Source: Haloterrigena alkaliphila
Lineage (GTDB): Archaea > Halobacteriota > Halobacteria > Halobacteriales > Natrialbaceae
Direction of reading: 5' to 3'
NCBI RefSeq assembly: GCF_017352155.2
Contig: NZ_CP071462.1
Span: 2,294,001-2,358,000 of the forward strand
DNA length: 64,000 bases
Program-made: the position numbers and the translations under genes
Notes under the pieces: model-generated
What the model saw: the letters and a program-made list of their open reading frames with translations, nothing else
Told to the model about the DNA's origin: nothing
The model's database searches: none
Shown here: positions 59,983-60,537 of the stretch, piece after piece
Position numbering within the stretch: position 1 is the first letter of the stretch
How the letters are laid out: the number at the start of each line of letters is the position of its first letter

Positions 59983-60048
59983 CGGGAGAAACCACCATAC
60001 GGTAGCGGAATCATAACCCTTAACTAGGGCACGCGGGTACTGTCTGGT

Positions 60049-60123
60049 AGCGGGATGGGATAGCCAGGAGATTCCGGCGGGCTCATAACCCGCAGATCGG
60101 TAGTTCAAATCTACCTCCCGCTA
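60049..60123 (+). tRNA. Initiator tRNA-Met (CAU)
   Basis: 75 nt without encoded CCA. The acceptor stem AGCGGGA pairs with TCCCGCT, with discriminator A. The anticodon stem carries the three consecutive G:C pairs (GGG...CCC) around CTCATAA, anticodon CAT at 60084-60086. The T arm is GGTAGTTCAAATCTACC. The A1:U72 end and the GGG/CCC anticodon stem mark it as initiator rather than elongator. No intron is present. Confidence 0.97.
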
Positions 60124-60537
60124 TACTTTTGCCGCGAGCAAATCCGCGAGCGGCAGGTATCGCACGGTGGTAGTTTGAACCAGACAGCGCTCGATCGGAG
60201 CGAGAGTGCTGGCGTGGTTCAAATCTACCTCCCGCTACTTTTCGACGCGAACAATATCGAGGAACGGAGTGACGAGTGTCGTGAGCGTCGAAAATACGCC
60301 GAGTAGATTTGAAGTAGACGACGAGGGAGCGAAGCGACCGAAGTCGGCGTAGTTCAGATCTACCTCCCACAATTCCAATCTACCGCCCGCTACTTTTCGA
60401 CGCGAACAATACCGGGGTTCGTCGACGCCGCTCGAGACGCACCGAACACCGATCGAGTCGGCGTCTCTCATTCTCTGACACGATGGTGGTTCGCAAAATT
60501 GTTATATTCGTAACGCTGTATTCGACTAGTACTCCTG
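60124..60537. repeat. Array of tRNA-iMet 3'-end copies (att-like scars) in a 414-bp spacer
   Basis: The last 24 nt of the tRNA (60100-60123) recur at 60214-60237 with one change, at 60349-60372 with a changed end, and partially at 60373-60392. An inverted piece (GTAGATTTGAA) lies at 60303-60313. The copies at 60214 and 60373 share a further CTTTTCGACGCGAACAATA downstream, making a 155-bp-spaced direct repeat. GAACGGAGTGA is at 60262. No gene is present before the ATG at 60538. The pattern is that of repeated integration or recombination at the tRNA 3' end. Confidence 0.8.

Follow-up and report, generated by a model that had tools for sequence, protein, structure and literature searches.

Short units with copies of the tRNA tail behind tRNA genes of Halobacteria and their possible serial insertion by a tyrosine recombinase

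Integron cassettes are inserted serially beside a fixed platform site, with hairpin-forming recombination sites (the folded attC) and a strand polarity, and in REP/BIME arrays direct and inverted repeats alternate, with recurring loop modules between them. Integrative elements that target tRNA genes leave displaced tRNA fragments behind, according to the Islander principle as set out in PMC4383910, and a review of archaeal integrases names three preferred locations within tRNA genes (PMC8371274). Attachment in the T-loop is described for mycobacteriophage Ms6 (PMC1762012), and the attP of pleolipoviruses has been placed within a coding sequence (PMC7911831). In Methanopyrus kandleri, about half of the tRNA genes are reported to have a palindrome some 10 bp behind them (PMC5217627), and the small mobile repeats, MITEs and PATEs of Haloquadratum are presented as short non-autonomous elements with palindromes or inverted repeats (PMC3119063).

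Here, we describe an array of short units behind the initiator tRNA gene in a 64,000-nt stretch of haloarchaeal DNA (the window, meaning the whole stretch analyzed), to which we assign a probability of about 0.48 of being the local case of cargo-less units, spread throughout the Halobacteria, that a tyrosine recombinase inserts one after another through crossover in the T-loop. As in known tRNA-targeting elements (Islander, SNJ2-type pleolipoviruses), a 3' fragment of the tRNA is duplicated in direct orientation downstream of the intact gene, insertion is apparent at the tRNA end from precise presence or absence between relatives (in a minority of 41 pairs), and serial tandem insertion is possible. 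Unlike such elements, the units are about 100 bp long, too short for an integrase gene, carry no cargo, contain an inverted T-loop piece and conserved hairpins, and adjoin about half of all tRNA genes; moreover, they copy 21 nt, from the T-loop to the end, as opposed to 13-16 nt in SNJ2. The likeness to integron cassettes lies in layout only (serial insertion, hairpins, strand polarity), whereas the units contain no cassettes with ORFs, any tRNA gene serves as the platform, and the core is the tRNA's own sequence. Direct and inverted repeats alternate with recurring modules as in REP/BIME, but the repeat is the local tRNA tail, differing from locus to locus and bound to tRNA 3' ends, and not a dispersed single family. 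The palindrome just behind many tRNA genes of one archaeon, M. kandleri, is similar in place, but in the description given in PMC5217627 it is single and short (CGTTA-N9-TAACG), with neither tRNA copies nor arrays; the Haloquadratum elements, as presented in PMC3119063, have no tie to tRNA genes and no duplicated tRNA tail. No earlier description of the units was found in one open-access library, which covers few subscription papers, and the Methanopyrus palindrome came nearest. The tRNA-linked units appear to be undescribed as a sequence family; how they are generated we infer below.

The window is part of a 3.8-Mb contig of a genome of 4.27 Mb (G000) and contains a single tRNA gene, tRNA-Met(CAT), on the plus strand, as are all features of the array (60048-60124 by ARAGORN, 60049-60123 by the Rfam tRNA model). 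Behind it lie two and a half units with a common design, in which the tRNA tail (A) is followed by a hairpin (h), an inverted tail piece (A'), a second hairpin (l) and then the tail again. The A sequence, delimited by the boundaries of its copies, is nt 53-73 of the tRNA (GTTCAAATCTACCTCCCGCTA; 60103-60123). By sequence and fold, unit 1 (60124-60216) comprises a CTTTT run, h (about 60130-60155, with tandem GA internal loops), A' (60169-60181) and l, after which comes the second tail copy (A2; 60217-60237, 21/22 by tail comparison); CTTTT also follows this A2, ahead of the next hairpin h. Unit 2 (60238-60351) consists of h (about 60239-60294), A' (60303-60316) and l with a GCGAAGC tip, followed by a decayed tail copy (60352-60372, 19/22). 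The truncated third unit (60373-60417), made up of a tail copy (60373-60392) and ~25 nt from the start of a hairpin of the unit-2 type, is 91% identical to 60218-60262. In the repeat search, the direct copies were delimited at 60214-60238 (92%), 60349-60373 (88%) and 60369-60393 (76%), so that three direct tail copies and two inverted pieces follow the initiator tRNA in total. The initial annotation had reported at least three partial tail copies and an inverted piece behind the intact gene, with 19 bp of downstream sequence common to two copies; the repeats are real and its coordinates were right, and the 19 bp belong to a 45-nt family (60104/60218/60373) and are the start of the second unit's hairpin. 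It had missed the inverted piece at 60169-60181, which is visible in both sequence and fold.

The right border of the array is the promoter-side flank of a lipoprotein gene (60488-60537), found at the same place in 5/5 congeners, about 380-520 bp past the tRNA. This gene and the neighboring PAP2 gene had been suggested as possible residual cargo of an integrated element, a reading that we reject because the flanks are the same elsewhere: in all five congeners, the tRNA stands between a GtrA-like gene on its upstream side and the lipoprotein start on the other, so that the lipoprotein and PAP2 genes are ordinary neighbors.

When the array was compared with its own genome by BLAST, matches appeared at other tRNA genes in the same layout, each with the tail of its own tRNA. 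The 1.5-kb flanks of all 46 tRNA matches of this genome were surveyed, and a copy of the gene's own tail was found downstream of 26/46 genes and, within 330 nt, upstream of 0/46; two congeners have downstream copies at 21/47 and 22/46 genes, with one upstream copy (a tandem tRNA) and none, respectively. In a chance test on 45 genes (L077, a weak tRNA match, was left out), own-tail copies matching at least 17/22 occurred within 300 nt downstream of 25/45 genes and upstream of 0/45, and 0/4500 Markov-shuffled downstream stretches reached at least 17/22. At the level of at least 20/22, the own tail was found in 20/45 cases, as against 3/1972 trials with the tails of other tRNAs. Most of the 31 units of this genome that were folded consist of h with paired GA/GA internal loops and then a long A'-l-A2 hairpin. 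The corresponding signature, GATTYGAA-N30-60-TTCRAATC, has 21 matches in the genome (reversed control, 0), 18 of them directly behind tRNAs and the other 3 displaced from a tRNA. In some units, a second palindromic element lies inside the hairpin tip (L046 and L047, behind tRNA-Phe and tRNA-Val-gac of this genome, and L008 and L016 of G004); it reads TCGTTCGAAAC..GTTTCGTGATGACGA..TCGAACCAC, apparently with three stems, as if hairpin loops were its target.

Measured from tail to tail, a unit spans about 70-240 bp. Among 86 direct copies (the profile leaves out one short-tailed congener tRNA and L077), identity to the tRNA rises from 0.51 to 0.95 at G53 and drops from 0.74 to 0.43 after nt 73, so that each A copy reproduces exactly the stretch between the T-loop edge and the mature 3' end (nt 53-73) of the tRNA next to it. 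The inverted pieces (n = 50) are limited to about nt 54-63, the T-loop and half of the T-stem, of which A' is the reverse complement. Both h and l are hairpins made of recurring modules. In counts based on 72 units from 63 tRNAs, from which units with a poor A' were dropped (the unit-pair comparison lists 85 units), the l hairpin has an RCGNAGY tip on the tRNA-sense strand in 45/72 units and the complement in 7/72; GNA accounts for 0.49 of the RC-NNN-GY-framed triplets in l and 0.34 in h, compared with 0.06 in the window at large. Mismatches of the G.T and A.C types number 46 and 25 in l and 19 and 27 in h, counts that are not independent of each other and from which no clear RNA signature emerges. 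Exceptional stability in DNA is described for GNA loops with closing G-C pairs (PMC4686876), and the tips and mismatch counts together hint, without proving it, that a single DNA strand may matter.

The hairpin signature occurs in 281/292 Halobacteria genomes, representing 74/77 genera and 11 families; the control patterns gave 0. In a sample of the phylum, 22/24 Halobacteria have a match, and outside the class 14/124 genomes have a single, chance-like one (control match in 3). A search of a species-genome collection with the l-core pattern returned 26 stretches, 25 titled as haloarchaeal, including Haloarcula, Natrialba, Halorhabdus, Halobellus, Halovenus and several MAGs, and one titled only as a Euryarchaeota MAG. 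At 38 loci (L185-L222), 33/39 hairpins have a tRNA at most 700 nt upstream; of the remaining 6, three lie at the edge of the stretch, two are apparent chance matches, and one reflects an ARAGORN miscall. A phage search (blastn) with the Val unit gave no match, and the best 20 of 55 matches to the initiator tRNA locus cover only the tRNA part of the query. Viral contigs scanned with two l cores gave 0 matches (a third, looser pattern, with 120 stretches, was treated as noise), and the A'-l-A unit was found in 0/5 SNJ2-like virus genomes. The plasmid search detected units on two replicons, where they also lie behind tRNA-type genes and thus do not represent a free form. On one plasmid, that of Natrinema thermotolerans (CP031304.1; L079:7850-8090), a normal unit comes after a tRNA-Glu-like sequence whose anticodon region is rebuilt and which ARAGORN does not call.

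The position of the units downstream of the gene on the tRNA strand, with a tRNA close upstream of those 33/39 hairpins, would suit a functional 3' trailer, in which RNA hairpins would be co-transcribed with the tRNA for termination, processing or regulation and A2 would shield A' from pairing with the tRNA. The mostly tRNA-sense orientation of the GNA tips (45/72 versus 7/72) and the excess of G.T over A.C in the l hairpin point the same way, but the h hairpin has the opposite excess, GNA tips are known for their stability in DNA (PMC4686876), and A2 repeats the acceptor strand, for which A' has no partner. Judged from sequence, such a trailer seems quite unlikely, given also that about half of the tRNA genes have no unit and that units are gained and lost freely between congeners, with only 4/24 pairs looking orthologous.

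In a minority of 41 unit/no-unit pairs, the comparison between species has a unit on one side and none on the other, with the difference lying precisely at the tRNA end. Most of these pairs, from which the two tRNAs left out of the border profile were also omitted, are unalignable; 3 are strong for true units, with Ala-cgc added by a separate comparison, 2 are strong for another type of insert (Leu-gag), and 3 are weak. The first copy behind tRNA-Ala(cgc) of G001 is followed by 60 nt that agree at 59/60 with the flank directly behind the unit-free tRNA of G005. At Arg(gcg), different units in G000 and G001 are inserted at the same site (Smith-Waterman scores of 42 and 50, null 11-12), and the same-site comparison at Glu(ctc) of G001 scores 33. 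In G005, what flanks Arg-gcg and Ala-cgc is itself repeat sequence of older date. A decayed h remains at no fewer than 5 'unit-free' sites, so that loss competes with gain. Only 4/24 pairs of single units at the same tRNA look orthologous, which implies a fast turnover of units. At 6 tRNAs, the single unit of one species corresponds to the distal unit of another's two-unit array, and the proximal unit is the match instead at 2 clear and 3 borderline tRNAs, with one ambiguous case; tail copies are nearer to the tRNA sequence in the proximal unit of 11 arrays, in the distal unit of 2, and equal in 3. The two initiator-tRNA loci of six congeners contain the same h and l modules in different combinations: the modules have been recombined between loci.

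Besides these units, Leu-gag (G001:490921) has its tail separated from the tail copy by a 206-bp insert of another type, in which part of the downstream flank is repeated. A further repeat type with an inverted acceptor strand, and not T-loop, and with TTC tips where the units have GAA, was seen at Ala-cgc (G001:52751, G005:3142784), Ala-ggc (L044) and Arg-gcg (L069, G005:441995). This apparent second unit class with an acceptor-stem core, noticed by eye, was searched for systematically, with an extra direct core copy at 3/137 tRNAs and an inverted one at 2 (control, 18/2679 trials), and given this rarity it is not claimed to be general.

The three displaced hairpins of the G000 genome lie 19.3 kb from tRNA-Pro(tgg), with an element ending in an integrase, 54 kb from tRNA-Arg(tcg), with an integrase at the far end, and 1.5 kb from tRNA-Gly(tcc), where a second unit adjoins the tRNA. 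The elements at Pro(tgg) (G000:C1:1647908-1667209; 19.3 kb) and Arg(tcg) (G000:C1:2514820-2569144; about 54 kb) are of the SNJ2 type, their integrases carrying PF00589 and PF02899 and being 42.4% and 45.9% identical to the SNJ2 integrase. Both sit between the tRNA and an older unit, so that the tRNA tail beside the units is an attB in use. Such use of the tRNA 3' end by large integrase-bearing elements lends some credit to a reading along the lines of the initial annotation, in which the array is a set of nested att scars from large elements that integrated and were imprecisely excised. The 70-240-bp spacing, the inverted pieces and the conserved h and l hairpins, which are not expected of plain att scars, as well as the spread over about half of all tRNA genes and 281/292 genomes, speak against it, and we consider it very improbable. 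No h-A'-l was seen at the ends of the two integrated elements or in any of the 5 virus genomes, and the core of the SNJ2 type comprises 13-16 nt at the very 3' end of the tRNA whereas the unit copies extend over 21 nt from the T-loop edge, so that in core extent, as in the lack of A'-l-A from the viruses, the units differ from SNJ2-type proviruses or scars. At the initiator locus itself, 5/5 congeners have an array of differing units and none has a large element; an array in all relatives and no element, the outcome named beforehand as counting against integration and excision, is thus nearly what was found, but the unit content varies between species. The supported part of the earlier proposal is repeated site-specific insertion at the tRNA 3' end, for which the precise same-site comparisons (Arg-gcg, Ala-cgc, Glu-ctc), the serial arrays, and the elements with integrases found at this point of two other tRNA genes all speak, and not the part about excised large elements. 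The cognate integrase for which a search had been suggested is absent from the initiator tRNA locus, the 9 PF00589 places of the genome all lying elsewhere.

Insertion of the units by a tyrosine recombinase, the reading that we favor, would include their exchange and removal by the same enzyme. If the crossover took place in the T-loop, the incoming DNA would have to supply the rest of the gene from that point on, and the trace left behind would be precisely the 53-73 block; the T-loop half-site that recurs inverted would also be accounted for. Newer units would mostly adjoin the tRNA, with older ones displaced downstream and decaying. The recombinase would be supplied in trans, as the integrase of a mobile element or as an Xer-like enzyme. 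An Xer-like protein is encoded in 59/59 haloarchaeal genomes, mostly as a single copy (392 aa, G000:C1:3240131-3241306), and an SNJ2-type integrase in 55/59. Against the SNJ2-type enzyme, G032, G049 and G053 have no match to it at 1e-30, yet contain 9, 2 and 2 hairpins; against the Xer-like enzyme, G019 and G023 encode it and have no hairpin match. Mobility as such is called into question by the lack of a free or viral form in 5 SNJ2-like viruses or viral contigs and by the small number of alignable pairs.

Simple insertion also leaves the match of A' to each tRNA unexplained. This specificity could come from hairpin-templated correction or from local copying, both of which are possible, and for this reason we retain, as conceivable though on the unlikely side, the local making of units without an integrase: template switching at palindromes during replication would write the inverted and direct tail copies, and exchange between A and A', through either homologous recombination or gene conversion, would shuffle, multiply and delete them. 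Local copying directly explains the fit of A' to the local tRNA (T-stem variants, the GTTCAATTC and GTTCGATTC cases), an alternation of A and A' around palindromes is the outcome of double template switching, and the reassortment of modules at A/A' borders and the viral scans, in which no mobile form was found, are in keeping with it. The copies, however, end exactly at the T-loop edge and the mature 3' end, which slippage does not predict; the h and l modules are not local, being common to different tRNAs and 11 families; and at Ala-cgc and Arg-gcg a whole unit either stands at one nucleotide position or is missing from it.

A more elaborate form of the recombinase reading, unlikely in our estimation, is that haloarchaea keep an integron-like platform at their tRNA genes, consisting of GNA-tipped cassettes folded from single strands, a conserved recombinase, and an A' address copied by hairpin-templated correction. 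Cargo-less cassettes would then be recombined into the T-loop of the matching tRNA, the newest beside the gene, with the tail as a gene-specific address.

Either way, the family is tied to tRNA genes of nearly a whole archaeal class, with gene-specific tail copies and turnover between sister species. If moved by recombination, the units would be mobile elements of a very small kind and would illustrate how integration hot spots arise at tRNA genes; if they are instead made on the spot, template switching at these genes is recorded in them. Provirus searches based on tRNA fragments may also be misled by the units.

Shortly past the array of tRNA-Lys(ttt), a 495-aa tyrosine integrase begins (L161:1230-2717); a further strong tail copy was not found in the 28 kb examined. 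At G000:C1:2722740-2724563, tRNA-Gly(tcc) is followed by a unit, a 1.5-kb stretch, a tRNA piece of ~30 nt and a second, near-identical unit; the stretch contains what by eye appears to be a gene of the metallo-beta-lactamase fold, and the whole may be a gene-carrying unit array.
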